Assembly: GCF_010119195.1 (NCBI RefSeq)
Contig: NZ_WRXL01000002.1
Coordinates: forward strand, 310,001-374,000
Source of the DNA: Haloarcula salina
GTDB taxonomy: Archaea > Halobacteriota > Halobacteria > Halobacteriales > Haloarculaceae
Direction of reading: 5' to 3'
Length of the DNA: 64,000 nt
Shown: positions 13,740 through 17,691 of the stretch, one piece after another
Position numbering within the stretch: position 1 is the first letter of the stretch
How the letters are laid out: every line of letters begins with the position of its first letter
Notes under the pieces: generated by a model
Seen by the model: only the letters and a program-made list of their open reading frames with translations
Databases searched by the model: none
What the model was told of the DNA's origin: nothing
Translations under genes and position numbers: made by a program

Positions 13740-14168
13740 TCACTCCGGGCGACCGAGTTCTCGAACGAGCAACACGCCGTCGCCGTCGTCGTAGTGGTCG
13801 GGGAGGGCCTCCGCTTTCGAGAACCCGAACCCGTCGTAGAACGATCTCGCGCGCTCGTCGTCCTCGCGCGCGGTGAGCCGAACCGTCTCGAACCCTGTCT
13901 CTCGCAATCGTCCCAGCAGGCCCTCCATGAGCGCTGTGCCGAGGCCCTGGCTCTGCATCGCCGGCGCGACGGCGAACTCCGCGAGGTACGCGACCGGGCG
14001 GTCCGGCACGACCAGCGCGTAGGCGGCGGGCTCGCCGGCGTCGAGCACCAGCACGAGCGGCGGCCCCTCGATTCCAACGTCGAGCAGTTCCGGCCACGGC
14101 TCGTCCAGCGCGCTCGTCTGGATCGCTCGCAGGCGCGCCTCGTCGCTCGGGCGGGCCTCCCGAATCAT
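13740..14168 (-). CDS. GNAT-family N-acetyltransferase
   Basis: The protein is 142 aa from the ATG at 14168. The acetyl-CoA binding core of the GNAT fold is clear: LAEFAVAPAMQSQGLGTALMEGLLGRLRETG contains the Q-x-x-G-x-G/A motif (QSQGLGTAL), and ARSFYDGFGF is the usual motif-B tail. The N-terminus (MIREARPSDEARLRAIQ) is also typical. RimI-like enzymes have similar length, but the substrate is not determined. Its ATG overlaps the stop codon of the upstream DUF92 gene (ATGA), so the two are translationally coupled. Confidence 0.88.
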   Translation of the reverse strand: MIREARPSDEARLRAIQTSALDEPWPELLDVGIEGPPLVLVLDAGEPAAYALVVPDRPVAYLAEFAVAPAMQSQGLGTALMEGLLGRLRETGFETVRLTAREDDERARSFYDGFGFSKAEALPDHYDDGDGVLLVRELGRPE

Positions 14169-15526
14169 ACCAGGCCGACGGCCACGACGAGGCCGGTGCC
14201 GGTGATCGCGGCAGCCAGCGTGGCGAGCATGTTGACGCCCTGGTTCCCGACGACCGACCCCTCGACGGTCGCGCCCAGGAGACTGTCGACGGTCATGCCG
14301 ACGAGGCCGCACAGGAGGATGACGCCGCCGCCCAGCGGGGAGACGTGCTGGAGGAGCGCGGCGATGCCGGCGATGAGACCCGCGCCGACGAGCCCGGCGG
14401 CGACGCCCTGCCAGGTGACGCCGCCGTCCGTGCCCGGTTCGACGCGTTCGAGCGTCGTGATGAGCCGCGGGTTGTCGTAGAGGCCGCCGAACTCGCTGGA
14501 GAACGTGTCCGTCATGGCGGCCGCGACGGCTCCGGCGAAGGCGTAGAAGAACAGCACGGGGTCGACGGCGATGTGGCTCGGACTCGCCGCCGCGGCGACG
14601 ACGGCGAACAGCGCGACGATGGAGTTCGCGAGGACGTTCCCGCTGCCGCGCGCGCCCTCGTTCTCCTCGGCGATGCCCCGTTCGAGCTTCTCGTCGTAGC
14701 GGAACTTCGTCGAGAGCCCGCCGAGTCCGAAGAACGTGATGAGCATCGCGAACCAGCCGAAGCCGCCGAGAACGATGGTCAGAAACGAGAGGAGGACGCC
14801 GGTGAGCATCCCCGGAAGAGACGCCGTATCGAGCGCGTAGGAGAGGTAGCCGAGCAGTACTGTCACCGCCAGCGCGACGACCACGCGCTGGGCGGTCACG
14901 GACGGGTCGAGTTCGAAGAACAGCCACAGCAGGAGGCCGACGGTGAGCATCACCAGCGGGTCGTCGCGTTCGAACAGCACCGACCGGAGCAGTGCGGCGA
15001 CGAACGCGCCGCTGGCGCCGAGAAACAGCACGGTCGGAACGGCAAGTGGGTCCGCGCCGGACGCGCCGACGGCGGTCTGTATCCGCGTGCCGAACACCTG
15101 TCCGGCAACGGCGGCGACGAATCCGACGACGACGAAGCCGGCGGTCGCGACGAACTCGTCGGTGCGGACGGTGTAGGCGAGGCGCTGGCCGAGGTTGCCG
15201 TAGGCGACGAGCAGCACCACGCCGACGAACACGGGGACCGGGAGGCCGAATCGGACGGCAAGCAGCGCCAATCCGGCGGCGGCCAGCGCGAAGGCCGCCA
15301 GGCCGTACAGCTTCCCGTCCTCGTAGTCGCCGGGGCGGGCGAACAGGTCGAACCACGACGAGCCCTGGTCGACGGCTGTCACGGCGACGGCGGCGACGGC
15401 GACGAACGGCGCGACGGCGGCGACAGTCGCGAGGTCGAGCGAGCGAACGCCGGTCGCGGCCGGGACGACGAACGCGAGCGTCCCCACGGCGGCGAACCCG
15501 CCCGCCCGACGGACTGTCGAGGTCAC
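14165..15526 (-). CDS. DUF92-family membrane protein, possible prenyl/phytyl-phosphate kinase
   Basis: This 453-aa protein has about 12 hydrophobic helices. The C-terminal two thirds carries DUF92 signatures: a polar loop with GYLSYALDTASLPGMLTG, GLGGLSTKFRYDEKLERGIAEENEGARGSGNVLANS, ATMTDTFSSEFGGLYDNPRLITT and GMTVDSLLGATVEG with N-Q-G-V-N-M. The DTFSSE and D-S-L-L-G-A-x-x-E motifs are the polar residues expected for catalysis. Plant VTE6 in this family phosphorylates phytyl phosphate, so a polyprenyl-phosphate kinase role is a reasonable but unproved idea. It has an extra N-terminal membrane segment compared with short bacterial members. It is coupled to the GNAT gene downstream. Confidence 0.85.
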   Translation of the reverse strand: MTSTVRRAGGFAAVGTLAFVVPAATGVRSLDLATVAAVAPFVAVAAVAVTAVDQGSSWFDLFARPGDYEDGKLYGLAAFALAAAGLALLAVRFGLPVPVFVGVVLLVAYGNLGQRLAYTVRTDEFVATAGFVVVGFVAAVAGQVFGTRIQTAVGASGADPLAVPTVLFLGASGAFVAALLRSVLFERDDPLVMLTVGLLLWLFFELDPSVTAQRVVVALAVTVLLGYLSYALDTASLPGMLTGVLLSFLTIVLGGFGWFAMLITFFGLGGLSTKFRYDEKLERGIAEENEGARGSGNVLANSIVALFAVVAAAASPSHIAVDPVLFFYAFAGAVAAAMTDTFSSEFGGLYDNPRLITTLERVEPGTDGGVTWQGVAAGLVGAGLIAGIAALLQHVSPLGGGVILLCGLVGMTVDSLLGATVEGSVVGNQGVNMLATLAAAITGTGLVVAVGLV

Positions 15527-15627: not shown

Positions 15628-16236
15628 GTGGGACTCTACGACCGGTACCTGGCGACCCGCGTGCGTCTGAGCGACGCCCACCTGCCCGAGACGGTCGCCC
15701 TCGTGATCACGGAGCGCGACCTGCTCGGCGACGGCGCGTACGACACGCTCGAGCGCTTCTTCGACTGGGCCGTCCAGTACGGCACCGAGACCGTCGTCGT
15801 CTACGTGAGCGTCCTCGACGAGGAGGCGATCCCGACGCTCCGGCGCGAGCTCGAGAACGTGACCGCGCCGATGGAGATGGCCGTCCGCGTGCCGGACGAC
15901 GAGTCGACCGCCGACGCCCCCATTCAGGTCTCGATCGGGCTGGGCGGCAAGTCGGAGTTCGCCACGGCCGTCCAGAAGCTCGCCGAAGACGTCGACCGGG
16001 GAGCGCTCGCCCCCGACGACATCGACGAGGCCGCCGTCGAGGAACACCTCGTGTTCCCGACGGCCCCGGACCTCGTCATCAAGACGGGGGCCGAGCGCCT
16101 CTCGGACTTCATGATCTGGCAGTCGGTGTACTCGGAGCTGTATTTCACGGACGTGAACTGGCAGAACTTCAGGCAGCGGGACTACCTGCGGGCGCTGCGG
16201 GACTACCAGGAGCGCCAGCGCCGCTTCGGCCGGTAA
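15628..16236 (+). CDS. Degenerate cis-prenyltransferase (UppS-family, NgBR-like subunit candidate)
   Basis: The protein is 202 aa from a GTG start (MGLYDRYLATRVRL). The C-terminal half is clearly UppS-family: IGLGGKSEFATAVQKLAEDV corresponds to the AYGGRxE block, and DLVIKTGAERLSDFMIWQ with the following SVYSELYF to the RTGGExRLSNFLLWQ block. It ends in RRFGR, containing the C-terminal RxG motif (R199-F-G). The N-terminal catalytic block is lost: where active enzymes have the DGN(R)R motif with the essential Asp, this protein reads VALVITERDLL. The LYTFSTEN block reads VVVYVSVLDEE. It is therefore probably not a stand-alone synthase. It lies tail-to-tail, 21 bases away, with an intact UppS that has the Asp motif but no RxG tail. 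Confidence 0.85.
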   Translation: MGLYDRYLATRVRLSDAHLPETVALVITERDLLGDGAYDTLERFFDWAVQYGTETVVVYVSVLDEEAIPTLRRELENVTAPMEMAVRVPDDESTADAPIQVSIGLGGKSEFATAVQKLAEDVDRGALAPDDIDEAAVEEHLVFPTAPDLVIKTGAERLSDFMIWQSVYSELYFTDVNWQNFRQRDYLRALRDYQERQRRFGR

Positions 16237-16257
16237 CTGGACGGGTCGCTGTCCGTC

Positions 16258-17184
16258 TCAATCGGCGATCTCGTACTCTTCGTCCAGTTGCTCGCGCTCG
16301 GCGCTCGGCAGCGCGTCCCGGAACCGACCGAGGATGCGCTTCGCCGTCGGCATCTCCGACTGCTCGATGGCGCGGACCAGCGCGAGCGAGCGCTGGGCGC
16401 GCGTCGTCCGCCACGACTGCTCGCGGTTCTCGTAGGTGCGGATGGCACGGAGGAAGTCGACCTTCCGGAACTCCGGCCAGTACGGCGTACAGAAGAACGT
16501 CGCGGCCTCGTTGCCGTTCGCGTGCCACGGCAGGAAGTTCGACGTGCGCTCGTCGCCGCCGGTGCGGACGATGAGGTCCACGTCGCGTGTCGGGCCCTCG
16601 TAGAGCCGCTCCTCGACGGTCTCGGCGGTCACGTCGTCCGGGTCGAGGTCGCCCGATTCGACCGCGCCGGCCACCTCGCGGGCCGCACCGAGCAGTTCCG
16701 CCCGGCCGCCGTAGGCCAGCGCGACGTTGAGATTGAGCCGGTCGTACTGGGCCGTCCGCCCCTCCGCGTAGTCGATGGCGTCGCGGACCCGATCGGGGAG
16801 CATCTCGGTCTCGCCGATGGCGCGGATGCAGACGCCGGCCTCGTGGACCCGGTCGGCGTCGGCGAAGGTCCGGAGCTTTCGCTCGACCAGATCGAAGATG
16901 TGCTCGCGCTCCTCGGGGTCGCGGTTGAAGTTCTCCGTCGAGAAGGTGTACAGCGTCACTTCCCGAACGTCGAGTTCGTCACACCAGTTCAACAGCGCCT
17001 CGGTGGTCTCCGCGCCCTCGCGGTGGCCCGCTTGCGTCTCAGAGCCGCGCTTTCGCGCATACCGCCGGTTCCCGTCCATGATAACCGCCACGTGGTCCGG
17101 CGTCCCCGATACTTCCAACTGCAAGAGTCGCTCGTACGCCGCATAGCCCAATCGCTTCCCCCTCGAAATCATCGTTGTGTACAT
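16258..17184 (-). CDS. uppS: Cis-prenyltransferase (polyprenyl diphosphate synthase), catalytic
   Basis: This enzyme of about 308 aa extends a prenyl diphosphate with isopentenyl diphosphate in cis to make the long lipid carrier used for protein glycosylation (dolichyl type in archaea). The catalytic Asp is in HVAVIMDGNRRYARKRG, followed by VTLYTFSTENFNR, NLNVALAYGGRAELL and DLIVRTGGDERTSNFLPW. The last motif continues as HANGNEAATFFCTPYWPEF, different from bacterial enzymes. A C-terminal extension (AIEQSEMPTAKRILGRFRDALPSAEREQLDEEYEIAD) follows and no RxG tail is seen. I chose the ATG giving MYTTMISRGK; ATGs at 17193 and 17172 are alternatives. See the finding on its degenerate neighbour. 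Confidence 0.93.
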   Translation of the reverse strand: MYTTMISRGKRLGYAAYERLLQLEVSGTPDHVAVIMDGNRRYARKRGSETQAGHREGAETTEALLNWCDELDVREVTLYTFSTENFNRDPEEREHIFDLVERKLRTFADADRVHEAGVCIRAIGETEMLPDRVRDAIDYAEGRTAQYDRLNLNVALAYGGRAELLGAAREVAGAVESGDLDPDDVTAETVEERLYEGPTRDVDLIVRTGGDERTSNFLPWHANGNEAATFFCTPYWPEFRKVDFLRAIRTYENREQSWRTTRAQRSLALVRAIEQSEMPTAKRILGRFRDALPSAEREQLDEEYEIAD

Positions 17185-17262
17185 TTCAACCACTCAATAA
17201 GGGCTTTGTGGAAGCGGCCCCGTTCAGTTATTTCCCGCCTAATCCCTGGAAATATTTGCGCA

Positions 17263-17299: not shown

Positions 17300-17494
17300 A
17301 TGGCGACCGGTACGGTTGACTTCTTCAACGACACAGGCGGTTACGGCTTCATCGAGACTGACGACGCTGACGAGGACGTGTTCTTCCACATGGAAGACGT
17401 CGGCGGCCCCGACCTAGAGGAGGGGCAGGAGGTCGAGTTCGACATCGAGCAAGCGGACAAGGGTCCGCGGGCGACCAATCTCAAACGGCTGTGA
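17300..17494 (+). CDS. cspA: Cold-shock-domain protein, copy 1
   Basis: This 64-aa nucleic-acid-binding protein consists of one cold-shock domain (OB fold). RNP1 reads GGYGFIET (KGFGFI in bacteria) and RNP2 reads DVFFHM (VFVHF). The start TGTVDFFNDTGGYGFI and the end VEFDIEQADKGPRATNLKRL are typical of the small haloarchaeal CspA proteins. It should act as an RNA chaperone in the cytoplasm. It is very acidic compared with bacterial CspA. Directly downstream, with 2 bases between, is a near-identical second copy; the pair is a recent tandem duplication and very likely one transcript. Confidence 0.97.
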   Translation: MATGTVDFFNDTGGYGFIETDDADEDVFFHMEDVGGPDLEEGQEVEFDIEQADKGPRATNLKRL

Positions 17495-17496
17495 CC

Positions 17497-17691
17497 ATGG
17501 CTACAGGAACTGTCGACTTCTTCAACGACACGGGCGGGTACGGTTTCATCGACACCGAAGACTCCGACGAAGACGTGTTCTTCCACATGGAAGACATCGA
17601 AGGCCCCGACCTCGAGGAGGGCCAGGAAGTGGAGTTCGACATCGAGCAGGCCGACAAGGGCCCGCGCGCGAAGAACCTCACACGGCTGTAA
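17497..17691 (+). CDS. cspA: Cold-shock-domain protein, copy 2
   Basis: This 64-aa cold-shock domain differs from copy 1 at about ten positions, mostly conservative (ETDDADED to DTEDSDED, VGGPDL to IEGPDL, ATNLKRL to AKNLTRL). RNP1 (GGYGFIDT) and RNP2 (DVFFHM) are intact. I use the ATG giving MATGTV, 2 bases after the stop of copy 1; a GTG at 17491 overlapping that stop is possible. It shares the promoter upstream of copy 1. A short stem-loop overlaps its stop codon and may end the transcript. Confidence 0.96.
   Translation: MATGTVDFFNDTGGYGFIDTEDSDEDVFFHMEDIEGPDLEEGQEVEFDIEQADKGPRAKNLTRL

Follow-up and report, generated by a model that had tools for sequence, protein, structure and literature searches.

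Two neighbouring genes of Haloarcula salina encode proteins related to cis-prenyltransferases (cPTs), and neither protein carries the complete set of motifs found in a single-chain enzyme of this family. The locus therefore raises the question of whether the two proteins work separately or as a catalytic and an accessory subunit of one enzyme, in the manner of the human DHDDS/NgBR (NUS1) pair, and of how such an arrangement arose.

The locus

All coordinates refer to the window, which is the whole 64-kb stretch of DNA that was analysed. LEFT denotes the gene at 15628–16236 on the plus strand and its protein; RIGHT denotes the gene running from 17172 to 16258 on the minus strand and its protein.

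15628–16236, plus strand: LEFT, putative non-catalytic, RxG-bearing cPT-like subunit with an NgBR-like role (GTG start, 202 codons and stop)
16237–16257, no strand: spacer of 21 bases between the stop codons of LEFT and RIGHT
16258–17172, minus strand: RIGHT, putative catalytic cPT subunit, DHDDS-like (304 aa from the conserved Met)

The first-pass annotation had described a convergent pair 21 bases apart, and both open reading frames were indeed found at these positions, the LEFT stop codon occupying 16234–16236. The GTG start of LEFT is backed by its relatives, in which V1 is kept in 96% of 119 aligned rows. The start of RIGHT, previously placed at 17184, has to be moved: a longer open reading frame begins at 17193, a Met is present at 17172 in 91% of 105 aligned rows and, judging from this alignment, translation most likely begins there. 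The H. salina genome (3.79 Mb, 99.96% complete) contains exactly two PF01255 genes, LEFT and RIGHT, so that synthesis of a cis-polyprenyl carrier via this family needs one or both of them. Upstream of RIGHT, at 17300–17691 on the plus strand, are encoded two near-identical tandem cold-shock-like small proteins of 64 and 66 aa.

Division of motifs between the two chains

Residues were tabulated in E. coli UppS numbering: the DHDDS query was copied from the PDB search alignment, and the human NgBR query is identical letter for letter to PDB 6w2l_B. Ten catalytic positions (D26, G27, N28, R30, H43, S71, E73, N74, R77 and E81) are present in the sampled RIGHT chains, in single-chain cPTs and in DHDDS, H43 being replaced by Tyr in a few RIGHT rows. 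The same ten are essentially absent from LEFT and human NgBR; an Asp is aligned at position 26 in 5 of 24 non-halobacterial LEFT proteins, with the rest of the motif missing. Y211, E213, R242 and G244 are complete in LEFT, and NgBR keeps the last three. RIGHT has lost Y211, R242 and G244, and DHDDS all four. Alignment with DHDDS, NgBR and UppS thus bears out the partition proposed earlier, with the catalytic set in RIGHT and E213, R242 and G244 in LEFT.

Human NgBR ends in RLGK, at the same length as LEFT. The carboxylate of that last residue contacts R37 and R85 of DHDDS, and activity is lowered when the residue is deleted or an Ala is added (PMC7573591). Activity likewise falls with the NgBR changes R290H and G292A. 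An RxG followed by one terminal residue was considered as a hallmark of accessory subunits and discarded: single-chain archaeal cPTs end alike, and bacterial ones vary. Because it is common to the single-chain archaeal enzymes, the ending is ancestral rather than accessory-specific. What is telling is its survival in LEFT, a chain without an active site of its own. Mutual information between RIGHT and LEFT (APC-corrected, 175 pairs, Neff 89, a sample of low power) was not enriched at the expected interface relative to locally shuffled pairings.

The RxG-bearing chain

15709–15720, plus strand: T28-E29-R30-D31, the conserved TERD(LL) replacing the catalytic DGNxR block (alignment of relatives)
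16117–16137, plus strand: W164-QSVYS-E170, retained UppS WQxxYxE block (alignment of relatives)
16222–16236, plus strand: R199-F200-G201-R202-stop, RxG then exactly one residue (C-terminus tally of relatives)

At the site of the catalytic UppS sequence VAIIMDGNGRW, LEFT reads VALVITERDLL. The loss of DGNxR and the retention of the C-terminal UppS blocks, both noted at first pass, were read again in the translation, the blocks being GGKSEFA, IKTGAERLSDFMIWQSVYSELYF and the terminal RRFGR. PF01255 matches the C-terminal half only (profile positions 112–219 of 219, E 2.8e-27), and against TIGR00055, the equivalog model for homodimeric UppS, LEFT scores 96.9, below the cut-off of 109.55. RxG-x-stop terminates 225 of 227 intact LEFT proteins and KxG-x-stop the other two. 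An N-terminal membrane domain is absent: approximately 20 residues precede the first core strand, the model placing a helix at 3–14 and a strand at 22–28. The AlphaFold2 model is fair (pLDDT 84.8, pTM 0.81) and in a fold search retrieves cPT folds, with catalytic ones ranked first and NgBR not among the 50 matches listed. LEFT proteins of one genus (g20, family f4; loci L041, L043, L044 and L045) carry a variable insertion of ∼15–20 residues in a loop near residue 95.

The catalytic chain

17062–17076, minus strand: D40-G-N-R-R44, catalytic block (alignment of relatives)
16507–16527, minus strand: W223-HANGN-E229, altered lid (Gly in place of the Tyr211 equivalent; the counterpart of Glu213 is retained)
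16261–16422, minus strand: C-terminal extension, predicted helices past the core, with a conserved -AD end and no RxG (tails and model)

RIGHT is matched by PF01255 over its full length (1–216, E 6.5e-69). Its translation contains MDGNRRYA and STENFNR intact and lacks RxG, as the first reading had it, and RxG was found in 0 of 223 RIGHT C-termini. With TIGR00055 it scores 226, above the cut-off of 109.55, yet it is devoid of RxG. A PDB sequence search returns human DHDDS as the best match (9.7e-46), with Methanosarcina mazei MM_0014 at 8e-13. The lid had been called different, which holds for the replacement of Tyr by Gly and for a loop two residues longer, but not for the Glu six residues after the Trp, which survives (WHANGNE versus WQxxYxE).

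The AlphaFold2 model of RIGHT, likewise fair (pLDDT 84.2, pTM 0.77), superposes on UppS at about 2 Å, and its alignment with DHDDS runs beyond the core. The post-core helices (end of 237–268, 271–283 and 290–300) are modelled with moderate confidence. By analogy with the DHDDS extension, it may be conjectured that this region mediates tetramers. RIGHT chains of family f15 are without the extension. The last two codons (16261–16266) specify the -AD end, which is found in 82 of 104 Halobacteria sequences.

Conservation and gene order in Halobacteriota

PF01255 genes are present in 390 of 391 Halobacteria genomes, spanning 86 genera, nearly always in two copies, and LEFT can be detected in 389. 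A repeat search of the weak or split LEFT cases traced them to loop insertions (genus g20), split contigs, frame breaks and the divergent family f11. Among the 391 genomes LEFT was not found in G381 (88% complete) and G389 (82% complete), and RIGHT was not found in G389 and the draft G072 (120 contigs) alone; in G072, accordingly, only LEFT was detected, and in G381 only RIGHT. The recurrence of both proteins in nearly all 391 genomes puts the pair far beyond chance.

Across the wider Halobacteriota, PF01255 is found in 195 of 197 genomes, mostly in two copies, and when the LEFT profile was run against 44 non-halobacterial genomes, drawn from about twenty families, at least 40 proved to carry a LEFT-type gene. 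Two genomes of family f18 (G397 and G405, about 91% complete) hold no PF01255 gene.

The first-pass annotation had been prepared to abandon a two-subunit enzyme if the pairing were not conserved among haloarchaea. It is near-universal, and the genes lie tail to tail in 179 of 180 fetched loci holding both, a fraction that describes orientation and not linkage frequency, as loci were picked partly by proximity. The sole non-convergent locus comes from G194, a haloarchaeon that carries two full sets of LEFT and RIGHT (L033, L054), one convergent and the additional one in tandem. Convergent order extends to other classes of the phylum: in G462 the two profile matches are 8 bases apart. LEFT and RIGHT lie at a distance from each other, yet are both kept, in several genomes (G178, G257 and G238). 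Additional PF01255 paralogues occur beside the pair in G068, G061, G225, G002 and others, and are of the catalytic type where checked (G068 and G225).

Origin of the pair

A survey was conducted by scanning with human DHDDS and fetching 80 loci. Thorarchaeota, Hadesarchaea, Bathyarchaeota, Methanobacteria, Thermoplasmata and Nano-/Woesearchaeota have one chain that combines DGNRR with a terminal RxG, the single-chain cPTs of L205 and L206 carrying KFG instead. LEFT was not found in the 17 searched archaeal genomes outside Halobacteriota that have a single RxG-bearing chain, and was present in 5 of 5 genomes in which the scan met an RxG-less chain; if one duplication event underlies it, this perfect association of motif and partner has little statistical independence. 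The record of locus L239 bears the title Candidatus Nitrosotalea, but its cPT is ANME-1-like and probably contamination.

In the trees LEFT and RIGHT form two groups within the archaeal clade. When they are forced into one clade, the likelihood exceeds that of the free quick search (p-AU 0.73). This placement fits a single duplication near the base of Halobacteriota followed by reciprocal loss, which is the best explanation for the pair.

The main competing history makes LEFT and eukaryotic NgBR orthologues, which would share a two-subunit ancestor instead of stemming from independent duplications. The LEFT profile does match human NUS1 over residues 14–202 (E 7e-10), both proteins read V-I-T-E at the DGNxR site, and in a PDB search with just the N-terminal half of LEFT, NUS1 comes out on top, at a non-significant E of 0.27. 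A reduced tree also sets NgBR beside LEFT, with a support of 87 that is not strong; however, the NgBR branch measures 3.86 changes per site, which puts its position beyond the resolution of the tree, and the single LEFT and RIGHT clade is allowed by the constrained analysis. Moreover, a fold search with the LEFT model places catalytic cPTs ahead of NgBR, every fetched Thorarchaeota locus encodes a single RxG-bearing chain, and no LEFT was detected in the Thorarchaeota genomes searched. Orthology is unlikely. The resemblance of LEFT to NgBR is probably one of function and motifs, with homology as a candidate reading.

A putative two-subunit enzyme

LEFT and RIGHT are very probably subunits of one DHDDS/NgBR-like heteromeric cPT that makes the dolichol precursor. 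RIGHT would bind the allylic diphosphate and Mg2+ through its intact DGNRR, STENFNR and RTGGDERTS blocks, and would be without the C-terminal RxG that closes the neighbouring active site in single-chain enzymes. LEFT, its catalytic and tunnel-forming N-terminal segments lost, would supply its RFG-R-COOH end in trans, in the manner of NgBR towards DHDDS. The predicted product is a long-chain polyprenyl diphosphate, the precursor of the dolichyl-phosphate glycan carrier. Homology and the literature point to the heterodimer, to the completion of the active site in trans, and to the product and its use. In Haloferax volcanii N-glycans are built on dolichol phosphate (PMC3871713), and the remaining archaeal dolichyl-phosphate pathway has been described as uncharacterised (PMC5088576). 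Convergent genes are not co-transcribed, and the gene order is thus no guarantee of equal expression of the two chains.

Separate homodimers, with RIGHT active without RxG and LEFT engaged in another role such as lipid binding or regulation, appear distinctly improbable. A precedent exists in M. mazei MM_0014, which lacks RxG and works as a homodimer whose TLGG tail closes the site (PMC8131916), and the unlinked genes of some genomes would suit such independence. Against this, RIGHT has no TLGG-like tail and, in Halobacteria, runs into the helical extension; the residues kept at 100% in LEFT (the equivalents of Y211, E213, R242 and G244, and the exact terminus) include ones that serve an active site, and LEFT itself has none for them to serve. 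The near-universal co-occurrence of the two chains also argues for a joint function. That LEFT is a decaying pseudogene or cPT duplicate, as its lost catalytic block and shorter N-terminal half might suggest, is rejected on conservation: the gene occurs almost throughout Halobacteria and in further Halobacteriota families, and its alignment shows invariant columns and a C-terminus that hardly varies.

A conserved DUF92 neighbour

14165–15526, minus strand: DUF92 membrane protein (PF01940), conserved divergent neighbour of LEFT (Pfam and locus tally)

The DUF92 gene divergently adjoins LEFT in 174 loci, is otherwise arranged in 9 and is missing from the fetched stretch in 53, a tally that takes in overlapping loci; a separate count gives 113 of 156. 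The divergent loci include other classes of Halobacteriota. The DUF92 family contains the plant phytyl-phosphate kinase VTE6, which makes a prenol-phosphate step plausible: by analogy, the DUF92 protein is a plausible candidate for a prenol-phosphate enzyme of the dolichol pathway.

Implications

It is quite possible, if short of probable, that Halobacteriota as a phylum use the heteromeric cPT as their standard enzyme, that it arose through one duplication of a single-chain archaeal cPT near the base of the phylum and reciprocal motif loss, independently of eukaryotes, which would have reached the DHDDS/NgBR division convergently, and that with DUF92 it constitutes a three-gene module making and phosphorylating the carrier polyprenol. 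On the two-subunit reading, the polyprenyl-diphosphate synthase of haloarchaeal N-glycosylation would consist of two chains, which family models recognise just as two UppS-like proteins. The pair would also offer a genetically tractable, membrane-anchor-free system for asking why the cPT became divided between a catalytic and a structural chain. It would likewise serve as a natural test of the NgBR tail, in which mutation leads to disease in humans. Were it independent of eukaryotes, the pair would clearly exemplify convergent subfunctionalisation in an obligate dimer. Heteromeric cPTs as a kind are already known from eukaryotes and a methanogen; the new elements are the phylum-wide distribution, the gene order and the complementary loss.

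Comparison with known systems

No open paper was found in the literature on haloarchaeal cPT subunits. A heteromeric cPT has reportedly been described from Archaeoglobus, about 2020. The first-pass annotation mentions a two-subunit cPT of Methanosarcina, and an experimental precedent from the same phylum as LEFT and RIGHT is the M. mazei heteromer MM_0618/MM_1083; according to PMC8131916, citing Emi 2019, it yields C45–50 products and is proposed to serve glycan carriers. As proposed for H. salina, two cPT paralogues of a member of Halobacteriota act together, and LEFT-type genes also occur in the other families of the phylum that were sampled. The haloarchaeal pair differs in that its genes adjoin tail to tail and its catalytic chain is extended by C-terminal helices. 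M. mazei MM_0014 resembles RIGHT as an archaeal cPT without RxG (PMC8131916), but is a homodimer with a TLGG tail and much more distant from RIGHT than DHDDS is.

Single-chain archaeal and bacterial cPT/UppS enzymes share the fold and PF01255 with LEFT and RIGHT, which between them carry the motif set of a single chain of this type; they differ in uniting the catalytic block and RxG, and no LEFT partner turned up in the 17 archaeal genomes mentioned above. The likeness to human DHDDS/NgBR is closer in design: the motifs are split over a catalytic and a non-catalytic chain, the accessory chain ends in RxG plus one residue, and the catalytic chain has extra C-terminal helices. Unlike NgBR, LEFT (202 aa) is without an N-terminal membrane domain and keeps Y211, which NgBR has lost, and RIGHT keeps E213, which is lost from DHDDS.
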